Shown piece by piece: positions 3,345 to 13,040 of a stretch of DNA of 62,638 nt (position 1 is its first letter; every line of letters begins with the position of its first letter). The notes beneath the pieces are model-generated. The model was given only the letters and a program-made list of their open reading frames with translations. It was not told where the DNA came from and ran no database searches. Source of the DNA: Butyriboletus loyo (taxonomy: Eukaryota > Basidiomycota > Agaricomycetes > Boletales > Boletaceae); NCBI GenBank assembly GCA_038093515.1, contig JBBPSI010000149.1, positions 1 through 62,638 on the forward strand, in the 5' to 3' direction. Position numbers and translations under genes: made by a program.

Positions 3345-3405
3345 TTCTCCCGCCTCTCCCGCCTCTCCCGCCTCTCCCGCCTCTCCCGCCTCTCCCCCGT
3401 CTTCC
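3345..3405 (+). repeat. 9-bp tandem repeat (CCCGCCTCT)n
   Basis: About six perfect tandem copies of a 9-bp pyrimidine-rich unit. The unit is a multiple of three, so it would encode a Pro/Leu-rich run. It lies between the decayed ESF1 end and the start of the deubiquitinase-like sequence. Confidence 0.85.
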
Positions 3406-6484: not shown

Positions 6485-9400
6485 CTACCTACACAAAGGG
6501 TGCTGCTTTATGATGTCCATGACAAGGTCCACTTTTTCATCTGTAGATTTGGTGGCAAAATGTTTGGATAAGATCTCATCCAGTTTCTTTGATATCTGAG
6601 CAGATACCCCAGATGCTTTATACCTTTCTTCTGCTAAGGCAAAGGGATTTTCAGATTTATTTTGGACCAGAGTGAAGGAATATTGAAGAAGTAGTATAAG
6701 GCCTATGAAAAGATATCAAGGTTATGAAAATTCAAAATGAATTAACTTACCAATGCCACGTTGCAGAACTATTCTCTCAGTGTTGGTTCTCTTTTTGAGC
6801 TGAAATACATAAAGAGTTAATACAGTAAATGTATTTTCATGATTGTACATGCCACCATGGTCTTTGCCTCTGTTGGTTGAAGAGAACTCTGAAATGAATT
6901 GTTGTAGCAAATTCCTAGTATGATCAAATGATAAATGATTTACCAGGGAGGACTGAGGGTTGGTGACAATCTGCATGATGTCAATTGCAATATAAAGACC
7001 TTCAAGTTAAAAACTGACACTCTGATCAAATTATGAGTACAATATTTAAACAATCACATAGATGTCTTACCTCCTAAATGTGAATAAAGCATAAAATTAA
7101 ATAACACAAATAATATTGCATGGGAAAATAAGCTTACATCCTATAGGAATGATAATCAATTAATAGCTGCATAACTATTATAGTAGCAAGATAATACTTA
7201 CCAGCTAAGCATACCAGAAGTTGTGAAATAATAGGGTTATATTGGAGTTTCAACATAAATAGAGGTTTCATAAGCAGAATGTAGATTTCAATTGTGAATG
7301 AGATCACTTACATTCTATTTGGAAGAAAACATGAGAGGCAGGCATGCATATATCAGTAATACACATTGGAACAACATATCATGTGATTTACCCTCTGGAA
7401 GGAAGAGTAAAGTGGGCAGATAAATCAGATTCATTCTCCAATGTCAGGTCAGATCACTCACTGCCTGTTAATGAGAAAGCAATGAAAGCAATGAACATGA
7501 ATTAATCAGCAATGAACATTTTCACATGCATACAAAGATGCTCACAAACTAGTATCCATATAGCCATAGAAGCAGACAGGTGAACCATCAGAGAGAAATC
7601 AGCAACAGCATCTGGCCTAGAGTCCATATGAGACCACATACATCCTGTGAAAGAAAGAGCAGCAGGGAGGATACTTCTTAGCAGAATTTTCATTTTAAAT
7701 GCACATCAGACAACTTACTTCCTATCAATGGAAGAGCACAAGGAAAGCTCATCAACAACATTGTTCTTTCAAATCCATATTAGATCACTTACTTGCTATC
7801 AAGGGAGAGGAGCAAGAGGGATGCTCATGAGCAACTCTATATTTTGAATTCACATTACATGACTTACTGCCTATCAATGGGAGAGAAATAGGGGGAATGC
7901 TCATCAGTACCATCTCCAAATTCACATCTGGCCACTTACATGCTATCAATGGGGGGAAATAGGAGGAATGATCATCAGCACCATTCTCATTCCAATTCAC
8001 ATCCAGCCACTTACAGCCTATCAATGGGGGGAAATAGGAGGAATGGTCATCAGCACCATTGTCATTCCAATTCACATCCAGCCACTTACAGCCTATCAAT
8101 GGGGGGAAATAGGAGGAATGGTCATCAGCACCATTCTCATTCCAATTCACATCCAGCCACTTACAGCCTATCAATGGGGGGAAATAGGAGGAATGGTCAT
8201 CAGCACCATTCTCATTTCAATTCACATCCAGCCACTTACATCCTATCAATGGGGGGAAATAGGAGGAATGGACATCAGCACCATTCTCATTCCAATTCAC
8301 ATCCAGCCACTTACAAGCTATGTATCAATTGGGGAGAAATAGAAGGAATGGTGATCAGCACCATTCTCATTCCAATTCACATCCAGCCACTTACAAGCTA
8401 TGTATCAATTGGGGGGAAATAGGAGGAATGGTCATCAGCACCATTCTCATTCCAATTCACATCCAGCCACTTACAGCTATCAATGGGGGGAAATAGGAGG
8501 AATGGTCATCAGCACCATTCTCATTCCAATTCACATCCAGCCACTTACATCCTATCAATGGGGGGAAATAGGAGGAATGGTGATCAGCACCATTCTCATT
8601 CCAATTCACATCCAGCCACTTACAGCCTATCAATGGGGGAGATACATGCATGCACATTCTCATTCCAATTCACATCCAGCCACTTACAGGCTATCAATGG
8701 GGGGAAATAGGAGGAATGGTCATCAGTACCATTCTCATTCCAACTCACATCCAGCCACTTACAAGCTATGTATCAATGGGGGAAATAGGAGGAATGGTCA
8801 TCAGCACCATTCTCATTCCAATTCACATCCAGCCACTTACAAGCTATGTATCAATGGGGGGAAATAGGAGGAATGGTCATCAGCACCATTCTCATTCCAA
8901 TTCACATCCAGCCACTTACAAGCTATGTATCAATGGAGAGAAATGGTGATCAGCACCATTCTCATTCCAATTCACATCCAGCCACTTACAGGCTATCAAT
9001 GGGGGGAAATAGGAGGAATGGTCATCAGCACCATTCTCATTCCAATTCACATCCAGCCACTTACATCCTATCAATGGGGGGAAATAGGAGGAATGGTCAT
9101 CAGCACCATTCTCATTCCAATTCACATCCAGCCACTTACAAGCTATGTATCAATGGGGGGAAATAGGAGGAATGGTGATCAGCACCATTCTCATTCCAAT
9201 TCTCTTATTCCAATTCACATCCAGCCACTTACATCCTATCAATGGGGGGAAATAGGAGGAATGGTCATCAGCACCATTCTCATTCCAATTCACATCCAGC
9301 CACTTACAGGCTATCAATGGGGGGAAATAGGAGGAATGCTCATCAGCAGCATTCTCATTTCAAATTCACATCTGGCCACACACCAACTATCAATTGGAGA

Positions 9401-12400
9401 GCAGCACAAGGGATACTCATCAGCACCATTCTCATTCCAATTCACATCCAGACACTTACAGGCTATGTATCAATGGGGGGAAAATAGGAGGAATGGTGAT
9501 CAGCACCATTCTCATTCTAATTCACATCCAGCCACTTACAGGCTAAGTATCAATGAGGGGAAAATAGGAAGAATGGTGATCAGCACCATTCTCATTCCAA
9601 TTCACATTCAGCCACTTACACGCTATCAATGGGGGGAAATAGGAGGAATGGTGATCAGCACCATTCTCATTCCAATTCACATCCAGCCACTTACATGCTA
9701 TCAATGGGGGGAAATAGGAGGAATGGTGATCAGCACCATTCTCATTCCAATTCACATCCAGCCACTTACATACTATCAATGGGGGGAAATAGGAGGAATG
9801 GTCATCAGCACCATTCTCATTCCAATTCACATCCAGCCACTTACATACTATCAATGGGGGGAAATAGGAGGAATGGTCATCAGCACCATTCTCATTCCAA
9901 TTCACATCCAGCCACTTACATGCTATCAATGGGGGGAAATAGGAGGAATGGTCATCAGCACCATTCTCATTCCAATTCACATCCAGCCACTTACAGCCTA
10001 TCAATGGGGGGAAATAGGAGGAATGGTGATCAGCACCATTCTCATTCCAATTCACATCCAGCCACTTACAAGCTATGTATCAATTGGGGGGAAATAGGAA
10101 GAATGGTGATCAGCACCATTCTCATTCCAATTCACATCCAGCCACTTACACGCTATCAATGGGGGGAAATAGGAGGAATGGTGATCAGCACCATTCTCAT
10201 TCCAATTCACATCCAGCCACTTACAGCCTGTCAATGGGGGAAAATAGGAGGAATGGTCATCAGCACCATTCTTATTCCAATTCACATCCAGTCACTTACA
10301 GGCTATCAATGGGAACAATGCTTATTAGCAGCATTCTCATTTCAAATCCACATCTGGCCACACACCAACTATCAATTGGAGAGCAGCACAAGGGATACTC
10401 ATCAGCACCAATTTCATTTCAAATCCACATCAGACCACTTACAAACTATCAATGGGAGAGTAGCAGGAGAGATGTTCATCAGCACATTCTCCTTTCAATC
10501 AATATTAGTCCACCTACATCCTATCATTGGGAGAGCAGCAGGAAAAAACAGAGGAAAAATACCAATCCATAACAGGATGCTCATCAGTATCATTCTTACA
10601 TTAAATCCATGTAAGACCACTTACATCCTATGAATATGGGAGTAGAGGAGGCATGTGTGTCAACAAAACTTTCACTTCAGATGTATTTACCATAGATTAC
10701 TTACTTGCTATGAATGAGAGTGCAATATGAAGGATGTTTATCATCAGCTATCTCATTTTAATTCCACATCAGAGTCCTTACAATCTTTCAATTGAAGAGC
10801 AGTACAGGGTGGATTCATCAGCAGTGCTTGGATTTTATATCCAGAGAGAAAACTTACCAGCTATGAAAGGAATGTACAGCATATAGGCCCATAGTCAACA
10901 CCTTGTTTCAGAATGCATACTTGATCACCTACAAACTATCATGGAAATGGCAGTTGTTGAGATGGACACAAAGTCATCAATAAAGTTATATTTTTCATCC
11001 ATATGCCACTTACTTTCTTTATATTAATGGATATGAAAGTATTAGTTTTGTGTCTTTCAGGTATAATCAGACCACTTACTTCCTATCATATTACATCAAC
11101 ACAAACATCAATCTGTTAGCCAGATTCTTTCTTAGTGCATTTCAGATCACTTACTCTCTAATGATACCAAAATAGCAATAGGCATGAACAAATCCATTAT
11201 TAATGTGCTGATTTGCATGTATTCCTGTGTGACTTACTCCCTTTGAAATCAAATCCTTGATAAACAGGAACTCATATTTTCAAGTCTGCATTAGATTACT
11301 CACCAGCTATTAATGCAAGAGTGATAGAATAGGTTAAATGATTTTTTTGTTTTGATATACCACTTACACCCTGTTAGTATGTGAGCTTATCATAACTTCA
11401 ATGCATAATGTATCACATACTCTCTTCATGGACAGAATTAAACAATCAATCAGTAAGCTCTTTTTGATTTCATGTTATGTTAATTACCTAGCCATCCATC
11501 AATATCATTCAAGCATAATAATATTTTCATCCCAATAATTTTTGAATGACTTAAATTCTTACCTTTGTGTGTGGAAACCAACTTGCCAATGCTTCACCCA
11601 GATTGAGATTTTGCTTTTGAGCAGTCCTGGACTCAGCATAAGGTACCAAGACACTTCATGGTATCAATATACTATGCTTTACACCCAGAACATGGTTCAC
11701 TTACTGTCTGACTGCATACTCAATGCAGAGCAGGATATTCTTTTCCTGTGCTGTAACCAACAACATCTGCAGTGATGCATCATTCAATGCAGCTGCAGTC
11801 TCTCTCAGCAATGTGTGACATCCTGTGTCAGATGTATCCATGTCTGGAAATATGATTAATACAAGAGAATAGAGATGAGAGCATATATGTACAAACTTTC
11901 CAGCTTCACATATGCCTGTGGGGGGAATACCATATTGCTCAGATCCTCCCATATATTTCTCTTGGCAAAGATTTCTTCAGCATGCTGCCTCTGCTTCACA
12001 AGTTGATCTTCTAGAGGCTGATTTAGATAGTTAGGCTGAAATGCCTGTATGATAAGTGCATCCCATTTGGTAAATAGCACAATCACTGGCACTAATACCC
12101 AAACCAATCAGCTCAGACAGCATTATCATGAAAAATTATCACCTTTTCTGGTGTCACATTCACAGAAGAACCTTTCTTCTGCAACAGTGATAGCACGATG
12201 ATGTTGATCCATTGGAATGCAGTACCTGCTTGTATAAGAGTCATCAGGACCTAGTAAAATAATGCCCACTCACCAGATGGCATGAATTCGCTTTTCAAGG
12301 AAAGTTGTACTGGCACGCTCCGTGATGAAGTCCTTTGTCTTGTCGAACTCATCCTCACGACCAGCCTCAAAACCAGCAGAGTCATGGAAGACAAATTTCC

Positions 12401-13040
12401 CGTTGCTTTTGAAAACCATCTCATAATTGATATCATGGAGTCCACGCTGTGAAACACGAGACGGCTTGCAAAAGCACTGCAAATGACATGGACGTAGCCA
12501 TGACACTCACCTCCCTGGATCCCTGGATCGCAAAGTCAACCTGATCACACGTCAACGGCATTAGCATCCGGTATATCTCAGCTTTATCAACCCTACCTTT
12601 TCCCCTTGATGGTGGATCTCCGGATCTTCCGTCGCGTTGCATATGCTCTGAAGGATGGTCGTCTTGCCGGCATTCGCCCTGCCGATGATGAGGATTCTAA
12701 ATCGTCCAAATTTCTCCATGAGATCCGGGTCAACATGTTGCATGAACGTCCGCATGTCGGCAGCACTCGAGTTATCGGGGTGCGGCTCGAGAGAGGTAGG
12801 ACCTGTGACCTGTTCCTTGGGCGCATCTGAATCTTTGTGCTGTATCTCAAGGGCCAGAGCATCGGCGCCTTTGGCTTGGGTCAGGAGAACGTCTGAATCG
12901 CTGGGGACTGCGTTGGGTTGCATATTGTGTGTATGGGAATGCTGGGAACTTGAAGGCGCCGCAGACGAATCTCTACTGGCGAAGCCGGATCGGAGGCGTC
13001 GAATTCGTTGATTTAAGGCCTTCATCGCGGGAGTGGCCAA
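6485..13040 (-). CDS. P-loop GTPase with a long run of single-codon exons
   Basis: G-domain protein of a family common in Agaricomycetes. G1 is GRANAGKT, G3 is DSAGFEAG, G4 is FTKWDAL; a HAIWYCIPMD segment lies between G3 and G4. Ordinary exons on the minus strand: 13040-12597, 12540-12511, 12446-12274, 12225-12143, 12091-11897, 11843-11705, 11626-11563. They join in frame and end with SWFPHTK in phase 0. Next come about 58 exons of one codon each (11423 down to 7071). Normal exons resume in phase 0: 6970-6944, 6914-6849 (ending RPWWH), 6799-6751 and 6702-6485. These code for TERIVLQRGIGLILLLQYS and a C-terminus ending KQHPLCR-stop. The predicted length is about 550 residues. Substrate and role are unknown. 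The conserved ends imply a working gene; inclusion of the microexons is inferred from splice signals. Confidence 0.8.
7071..7939 (-). other. Single-codon exons, diverged downstream flank (11 units)
   Basis: Same AG-NNN-GT arrangement after the array in transcript order. Lowest coordinate and codon: 7868 GCA, 7793 CAA, 7719 GAA, 7642 GAT, 7546 TTT, 7462 GCA, 7392 AGG, 7312 AAT, 7202 CTG, 7138 GAT, 7071 GAG. Donors are GTAAGT, GTATGT, GTGAGC, GTGAGT, GTAAAT, GTAAGC and GTAAGA. The three units nearest the array still resemble its consensus; those below 7650 do not. The last intron (7070 down to 6971, acceptor CATGCAG) leads in phase 0 into the 27-nt exon 6970-6944. Confidence 0.7.
7940..10302 (-). 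repeat. Tandem intron-codon array, 75-bp unit, about 32 copies
   Basis: The standard unit is 75 bp: a 72-nt intron (donor GTAAGTGG, a CTGAT branch-like site, a C/T-rich tract, acceptor TTGATAG) plus one codon. Lowest coordinate and minus-strand codon: 7940 CAT, 8015 GCT, 8090 GCT, 8165 GCT, 8240 GAT, 8315 CTT, 8395 CTT, 8475 CT only, 8549 GAT, 8624 GCT, 8688 CCT, 8763 CTT, 8841 CTT, 8920 CTT, 8990 CCT, 9065 GAT, 9140 CTT, 9233 GAT, 9308 CCT, 9384 TTG, 9460 CCT, 9540 CCT, 9620 CGT, 9695 CAT, 9770 TAT, 9845 TAT, 9920 CAT, 9995 GCT, 10070 CTT, 10150 CGT, 10225 GCT, 10300 CCT. Introns are nearly identical while the codon varies. The long open frames across the array in other frames follow from a unit divisible by three. 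Confidence 0.9.
10303..11562 (-). other. Single-codon exons, diverged upstream flank (15 units)
   Basis: Each unit reads acceptor AG, exactly three bases, then a GT donor, on the minus strand. Lowest plus-strand coordinate and minus-strand codon: 11421 AGA, 11368 GGT, 11304 CTG, 11238 GGA, 11155 AGA, 11080 GAA, 11014 AAA, 10933 TTT, 10858 CTG, 10782 ATT, 10705 CAA, 10625 GAT, 10518 GAT, 10443 TTT, 10366 TTG. Donors are mostly GTAAGT, with GTAAGG, GTAGGT, GTGAGT, GTATGT and GTGTGT variants. Intron bodies between 10600 and 11420 share little with each other or with the core array, yet the AG-NNN-GT spacing holds. No codon is a stop. One expected junction (11482-11489) has acceptor and donor abutting with no exon between. 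Confidence 0.7.

Follow-up and report, generated by a model that had tools for sequence, protein, structure and literature searches.

A chain of 57 single-codon exons within a predicted GTPase gene of Butyriboletus loyo

Organisation of the chain-bearing gene

We analysed a stretch of 62,638 nucleotides (here 'the window') that makes up contig JBBPSI010000149.1 (C149) of the Butyriboletus loyo assembly, which comprises 30.3 Mb in 420 contigs. On its minus strand, the window carries a gene with an unusual organisation: seven ordinary exons (13025-11563) are followed by a long chain of exons of only three bases each, and then by four further ordinary exons (6970-6485). A preliminary description of this DNA had proposed about 58 single-codon exons inside one GTPase gene, to be either spliced through or skipped as a whole. 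We find 57 three-base exons, running from AGA at 11423-11421 to GAG at 7073-7071, plus one exon of two bases. The ordinary exons are as follows.

12597..13025, minus strand: exon 1, with the start codon and the P-loop GRANAGKT (spliced gene model; weak Pfam matches below the cut-off)
12511..12540, minus strand: exon 2 (spliced gene model)
12274..12446, minus strand: exon 3 (spliced gene model)
12143..12225, minus strand: exon 4 (spliced gene model)
11897..12091, minus strand: exon 5, TKWD region (spliced gene model)
11705..11843, minus strand: exon 6 (spliced gene model)
11563..11653, minus strand: exon 7, the final ordinary exon ahead of the chain, ending SWFPHTK in phase 0
6944..6970, minus strand: exon IVTNPQSSL, phase 0, the earliest ordinary exon past the chain
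6856..6888, minus strand: exon SSLQPTEAKTM, with a weak donor, GTGGCA
6751..6799, minus strand: exon LKKRTNTERIVLQRGI (spliced gene model)
6485..6702, minus strand: terminal exon, with the conserved C-terminus (LILLLQYSFTLVQ...HPLCR) and the stop

The chain between them has older, diverged ends and a young core; each codon is listed with its minus-strand start.

11424..11562, minus strand: chain intron 1, with an internal TAG/GTAATT
10443..11423, minus strand: old 5′ part, 14 single-codon exons (RGLGREKFLIQDDF) with diverged introns: 11423 AGA, 11370 GGT, 11306 CTG, 11240 GGA, 11157 AGA, 11082 GAA, 11016 AAA, 10935 TTT, 10860 CTG, 10784 ATT, 10707 CAA, 10627 GAT, 10520 GAT, 10445 TTT
7868..10368, minus strand: young core, near-identical introns mostly of 72-77 nt and hypervariable codons that are mostly NNT: 10368 TTG, 10302 CCT, 10227 GCT, 10152 CGT, 10072 CTT, 9997 GCT, 9922 CAT, 9847 TAT, 9772 TAT, 9697 CAT, 9622 CGT, 9542 CCT, 9462 CCT, 9386 TTG, 9310 CCT, 9235 GAT, 9142 CTT, 9067 GAT, 8992 CCT, 8922 CTT, 8843 CTT, 8765 CTT, 8690 CCT, 8626 GCT, 8551 GAT, (8476 CT, two bases), 8397 CTT, 8317 CTT, 8242 GAT, 8167 GCT, 8092 GCT, 8017 GCT, 7942 CAT, 7870 GCA
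8475..8476, minus strand: two-base exon CT, the sole off-length exon of the window chain
7071..7795, minus strand: old 3′ part, 10 single-codon exons (QEDFARNLDE) with diverged introns: 7795 CAA, 7721 GAA, 7644 GAT, 7548 TTT, 7464 GCA, 7394 AGG, 7314 AAT, 7204 CTG, 7140 GAT, 7073 GAG

Both outer junctions of the chain, at 11563 and at 6970, are in phase 0. With the two-base exon omitted, the seven upstream exons, the 57 codons and the four downstream exons form one open frame of 545 residues. The earlier claims that the codons keep the frame and that none of them is a stop (0/57) therefore hold for the three-base exons; the two-base exon, if included, breaks the frame. Some junctions of exons 3-7 were placed by phase and by match to a Butyriboletus protein. 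Part of exon 1 matches the Pfam families Arf and MMR_HSR1, both weakly and below the cut-off, and part of exon 3 has no Pfam match; a G-domain (PF01926, MMR_HSR1) is found above the cut-off in the related proteins P0001, P0004 and P0016, and P0003 falls 0.1 bit short. The chain gene is thus predicted to encode a P-loop GTPase weakly similar to MMR_HSR1/Arf. The ratio of non-synonymous to synonymous change (dN/dS) in the ordinary exons is 0.32-0.43 in five comparisons, which indicates purifying selection.

The 57 units were reached from 71 raw matches to the unit pattern by removing ten overlapping readings and four matches with poor donors (10488, 8658, 7913 and 7021). The ten discarded readings lie 4 nt downstream of another match (eight TAA, one TGA and one TAT) and are mechanical, because the codon ends in A before GTAAGT or contains AG. 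Eighteen overlapping readings were discarded likewise in the paralogous locus on contig C6 (14 TAA, two TGA and two TAT), as were matches within an insertion in the locus on C8. Also left out of the count was the site inside chain intron 1, where an acceptor abuts a donor (TAG/GTAATT). It is present in the window, C8, C159a, C159b, C46, C337, C111 and C6, and is possibly a zero-length recursive splice site.

Introns separating the three-base exons measure 50-151 nt (the longest includes the two-base exon), and 25 of the 56 have a length not divisible by three. Some 32 units in the centre make up a tandem repeat of 75 bp, so their splice sites are not independent of one another. The 75-bp period is divisible by three, and plus-strand open reading frames (ORFs) of 390 and 334 codons lie there, as would be expected if the introns were illusory and the locus encoded an antisense protein of 25-residue repeats. 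However, only 31/56 units in the window, 8/42 in C6 and 4/21 in C158 have lengths divisible by three, the longest open frame spans 9-39% of each of nine arrays tested (C8 left out; 93 codons in C6), and the frame of the variable bases shifts inside the ORF, as seen in five exons examined. On these unit lengths and frames we rejected the antisense protein, which we consider next to impossible.

Splice signals and paralogous chains

The sequence AG-N3-GTRAGT occurs 46 times in the 4593 nt of the chain, where a first-order Markov model predicts 0.09 occurrences. Every other AG-GT spacing from 0 to 12 is found there 0 or 1 time, and the remaining 58 kb of the window hold three AG-N3-GTRAGT matches on both strands together. 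For the central tandem repeat, satellite expansion is an alternative besides chance. All 57 units have a donor and an acceptor of their own, neither of them interrupted. The introns had initially been credited with a donor, a branch-like CTGAT and a pyrimidine tract. The donors are stronger than those of the gene's ordinary introns, with GTAAGT in 44/57 versus 2/10 (P 0.0009), and a branch-like CTRAY is found about 14-62 nt upstream in 44/57 units.

Genome-wide, a search for pairs of units returned 269 pairs, against 20 in a reversed control; among the pairs listed, all are on C6, C8, C46, C75 and C111, within loci of the GTPase family. Matches to the unit and pair patterns, among those listed, sit in GTPase loci, save for a chain fragment on C164 for which no flanking exon was found. 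The unit pattern had no match in IMG/VR or in a prokaryote genome set. Introners inserted randomly into coding sequence seem an unlikely explanation: they would not yield a fixed 3-nt spacing, and the listed matches, the C164 fragment apart, lie in one family.

The upstream exons are present at 12 or more ends (C149, C152, two on C46, C8, C337, two on C159, C111, C75, C6 and C351), and the terminal exon likewise at 12 or more (C149, two on C159, C411, C8, C233, C274, C46, C158, C254, C6 and C395). Chain units adjoin exon 7 in 12/12 upstream ends, each of which has the WFP.. exon end, and stand before the last exons in 12/12 downstream ends, although in C274 this is a single unit, where the contig ends. 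Ten of the 12 downstream ends have a match to an [IV]VTNPQSSL exon; a diverged counterpart was recognised by eye in C6, and no such exon was found in C395. The organisation originally described, with consecutive one-codon exons inside a single GTPase gene, is confirmed, and the same junction recurs in paralogue ends.

Both chain ends lie on one contig in six loci, whose three-base exons number 57 in the window, 44 in C8 (with the insertion), 52 in C159a, 42 in C159b, 40 in C46 and 43 in C6; the assembly breaks inside several chains, and unit counts of long arrays may reflect misassembly. The chain breaks off after 7 units in C351 and after 8 in the second C46 copy. C6 is a distant copy (dS 0.49 and dN 0.17 over 326 codons) with its own units of mostly 77 nt, and in C158 and C254 units of about 68-71 nt define a third type. 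No stop is found among 405 three-base exons in ten loci or among 81 in eight partly covered loci (0/486). Outside the counted chains, a TGA match follows the C164 fragment and another lies past the C351 chain. We also observed that chains in C46 (2.8-4.3 kb), C351, C164 (34.5 kb) and C411 start or stop abruptly beside similar-looking unrelated matches, perhaps through another insertion besides that in C8. Elsewhere in the window, at 3346-3396, there is a perfect 9-bp tandem repeat (TCTCCCGCC, 5.7 copies).

In the older parts of the chain, the splice sites are kept while the introns drift. Codons of the old 5′ part are mostly common to close paralogues. When end units were aligned across seven paralogues per side, variable columns numbered 0/42 for AG, 6/120 for the donor and 262/1564 for the intron body (N and C sides summed, 11 mixed-label columns set aside), counts that are biased because the unit-finding pattern itself demands AG and GT; the same alignments have 264 gap columns within intron bodies. 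Nearly all homologous units are present in every paralogue; as exceptions we noted the off-length exons, the loss of one unit in C159b and a donor of the form GCAAGT in C8. Comparison of the window with C6 matches up 15 end exons in the same order, with AG-N3-GT retained, and in the paired introns 230/753 aligned sites differ and the length has changed in 11/13. This pairing is real, because by alignment score each intron's own partner ranks first in 13/13 cases (among 9 or 4 compared). Mean mismatch was discarded as a pairing test, being too blunt (0.305 paired, 0.345 mispaired).

These observations bear on the possibility that the chain is skipped whole, as a neutral 4.5-kb intron satellite whose unit happens to contain both splice sites. 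Whole skipping would also keep the frame, since both outer exons are in phase 0, and the core is indeed a 75-bp tandem repeat. However, the old diverged units retain acceptor and donor while their intron bodies drift, and neutrality would not explain why variability is focused on exactly the two bases after AG, as described below. We therefore regard whole skipping as very improbable.

Variable codons between near-identical introns

The introns of the young core are 96-99% identical, and in the arrays of the window, C159a, C159b and C111 the most variable columns are exon positions 1 and 2. For 18 window core units of 75 nt, the entropies at positions 1-3 are 1.39, 1.53 and 0 bits, whereas intron columns average 0.055 and reach at most 0.85 (entropies were calculated only for units of modal length that are near the consensus). 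The corresponding values are 1.79, 1.88 and 0.37 against an intron maximum of 0.94 in C159a, 1.79, 1.86 and 0 against 0.95 in C159b, and 1.27, 1.85 and 0 against 0.95 in C111. According to minimum spanning trees, positions 1-2 change at ~10-26 times the intron rate per site in these four arrays. Pooled over nine loci, core codons are NNT in 155/171 cases and encode 14 residues.

The contrast is clearest where introns do not differ at all. Seven window introns that are identical over 72 bases carry six codons (GCT twice, and CAT, TAT, CCT, CTT and GAT once each), and five further identical window introns carry four codons. Among the window, C159a and C111 there are 155 identical-intron pairs (54, 49 and 52), which share their codon in 19 cases (8, 8 and 3); the remaining seven pairings of the five loci compared yielded no identical introns. 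In the old ends, positions 1 and 2 differ at 0.108 and 0.042 per site versus 0.043 for the intron body on the N side, and at 0.19 and 0.21 versus 0.090 on the C side, and position 3 is invariant in 20/20 columns. Between the window and C6, 15/30 sites at exon positions 1-2 differ, and 4/15 at position 3. Ordinary coding sequence varies mainly at codon position 3. In the chain, the donor or the avoidance of stops probably constrains this position.

Nearest core-intron distances per site are 0.0037 for window-C159a, 0.0083 for window-C111 and 0.02-0.08 for pairs with C159b and C46; the flanking chain introns of seven paralogues have mean pairwise distances of 0.043-0.090, which is a different measure. 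These distances indicate that repeat units are homogenised within and between some of the paralogous loci. Variability limited to two bases between an acceptor and a donor, in an array with homogenised introns, is what would be expected of diversifying selection acting on translated codons plus concerted evolution, and hypervariable codons set against near-identical introns favour splicing through the chain over skipping it whole.

The exon diversity could also come from a process that itself respects the boundaries, either mutation targeted to exons or conversion that copies introns but spares codons. The contrast is extreme enough to suggest this, with the codon shared in just 19/155 identical-intron pairs, and of the three off-length exons, two have just T left, consistent with loss of precisely the two variable bases. 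However, the window's seven CTT exons all follow the ACATAG form of the acceptor, as does one CCT, and in C111 three GGT codons accompany one and the same intron sequence. Codons that travel with an intron subfamily in this way imply that ordinary unit duplication happens, and a boundary-respecting process seems to us quite improbable.

A spliced linker and its possible role

The reading we favour, with moderate confidence, is that splicing runs through the chain and yields a hypervariable linker of ~40-57 residues, which has been lengthened by duplication of intron and codon together and diversified by selection. Each unit would comprise one entire small intron and three coding bases, and the spliceosome would remove the ~70-nt introns singly, each step leaving one codon. 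Removal would probably be sequential, because an acceptor and a donor 3 nt apart can hardly be bound together. The resulting linker would join the GTPase body to the C-terminus. The array would grow and shrink by tandem duplication or loss of whole units, so that the frame is kept, and units would be homogenised within and between some paralogues. Positive selection would diversify codon positions 1 and 2, while most core codons, ending in T, cannot be stops. We infer that the linker may form a variable surface of the GTPase, with a recognition-type role.

Alternatively, the single-codon exons could be skipped or included at random or by regulation, so that each gene gives many in-frame linkers. 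All window exons but one are single codons, so any combination would stay in frame, and off-length exons would be harmless only if skipped. An adjoining acceptor and donor might also make skipping likely, and schistosome micro-exon genes (MEGs) are described, in the accessible text of PMC4350168, as operating in this manner. However, near-optimal donors in most units favour constitutive use, and partial inclusion is in our view unlikely.

Among the best 120 of 852 protein matches, the leading relatives are from Boletales: first Butyriboletus roseoflavus, at 66% across 80% of the query length, then Imleria, Chiua, Boletus, Rhizopogon, Suillus and Pisolithus, together with unnamed metagenome proteins. 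To find chain codons in transcripts, residues 345-544 of the model were compared with 4461 candidates, and none matched at E 0.01. A C-terminal profile built from the window gene and four paralogues matched 10 proteins that appear to be final exons translated from genomic DNA. In three relatives (P0003, P0004 and P0009), an ORF of 432-446 residues runs without interruption on a contig of 1529-1691 bases, which is most easily read as spliced RNA. At the chain's place, each has an unbroken linker some tens of residues long, near whose end is F-x-N-L, resembling the D-F-A-R-N-L-D-E that ends the chain. Annotated proteins of some other boletes are incomplete at this place: P0001 (Butyriboletus), the closest annotated relative, ends 14 residues past SWFPHTE, the P0010 model (Chiua) ends 7 residues past WFPHVK, and in Lanmaoa asiatica the C-terminus is annotated as separate small proteins (P0121-P0123) with little beyond the C-terminal exon. 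Such truncation would be expected if gene predictors cannot cross a chain there either.

Several points weigh against splicing through. The likeness between chain residues and the linkers of P0003, P0004 and P0009 is a lead only, because most shuffled comparisons are not significant: P ranges from 0.001 to 0.89 over 15 comparisons, of which C411-P0003 (0.001) and C159b-P0003 (0.024) reach 0.05 and the other 13 lie at 0.06 to 0.89. Besides the bias in the splice-site counts, constant exon length was given up as the main proof; it is weak per base, because intron indel rates are estimated to predict few indels in such small exons. The absence of stops was dropped as proof too, since of eight loci tested only C6 is individually below 0.05 (0/43 versus 2.9 expected from shuffled codon columns, P 0.02) and the other seven are not significant (P 0.08-0.86). 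Exon columns are not cleanly above intron columns in C46, C8 and C158 (8, 7 and 9 units) and separate partly in C6 (1.98, 1.48 and 0.99 against an intron maximum of 1.50), and spanning trees give these loci a weaker contrast, at ~6-17 times in the first three and 2-3 times in C6. The three off-length exons (a 2-nt exon in the window and a 1-nt exon in each of C159a and C111) would shift the frame if included. Furthermore, C159a has a stop within an ordinary exon, and the C8 chain is interrupted by the ~8 kb insertion (C8:65.5-73.4 kb; L016, L017), whose ORFs resemble a Gypsy-like long terminal repeat retroelement, with zinc-knuckle gag-like, integrase-like and chromodomain-like stretches recognised by eye. 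Some copies may thus be dead.

The closest parallel in fungi is the HNWD family of Podospora anserina (het-d, het-e and het-r), for which concerted repeats and diversifying selection are documented in the accessible text of PMC1805685 and PMC2873952. Both are paralogous families with arrays of variable number that are homogenised within and between loci and have few hypervariable codons per repeat, but the Podospora unit is the coding sequence of a WD domain, whereas here the unit is an intron whose coding part is one codon. Few hypervariable positions per repeat are found in the window, C159a, C159b and C111, and more weakly in C46, C8, C158 and C6. HNWD genes encode STAND NTPases with WD40 repeats and have a role in allorecognition, which for the chain family would be hypothetical. 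A Pfam scan of four relatives, whose models may be truncated, found no WD40 or NACHT at E 0.01, and did find the G-domain and other P-loop models.

In schistosome MEGs, too, much of the protein is encoded by tiny phase-symmetrical exons that can be skipped in frame, and evolution is fast; unlike what the available part of PMC4350168 describes, nearly all exons here are 3 nt, tens of them in a row, with near-identical introns and inside a GTPase gene. The window likewise has a coding segment in very small symmetrical exons, 57 of three bases in phase 0 plus the one of two bases. MEG exons are larger than those of the chain. That the spliceosome can include exons of 1-3 nt is indicated by the 1-nt exon of Arabidopsis APC11 (PMC4674806) and by plant microexons (PMC8831610), and conserved GTRAGT donors are reported for 1-nt exons (PMC8831610). 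In the accessible parts of both papers, however, such exons are single or an adjacent pair rather than arrays, and conserved rather than hypervariable. The known birth of introns by duplication across an intron-exon boundary is similar, but that is one event, whereas here there would be dozens, with a 3-nt exon. No splice element split by an internal intron, as in stwintrons, was found, and only the AG/GT in intron 1 is related. Among open-licence papers, searched by titles and abstract openings, none dealt with single-codon exons in arrays.

Should the codons be used, more than 50 successive splicing events would go into a single short segment of protein, far beyond the microexon runs in the cited literature. 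Standard annotation may miss such chains, and other bolete genomes may hide the same. The chain would also be a new route to variable protein surfaces, in which the recombining repeat is an intron and the varying part a single codon. We tentatively suggest, as a possibility we hold less firmly than the splicing itself, that it is a eukaryotic diversity-generating locus, where splicing builds a hypervariable segment codon by codon. Every paralogue would be a cassette whose intron-codon units, mostly with NNT codons that exclude stops, could be gained, lost and exchanged safely in frame, and the GTPase family may use them in recognition of non-self, a partner or a parasite.

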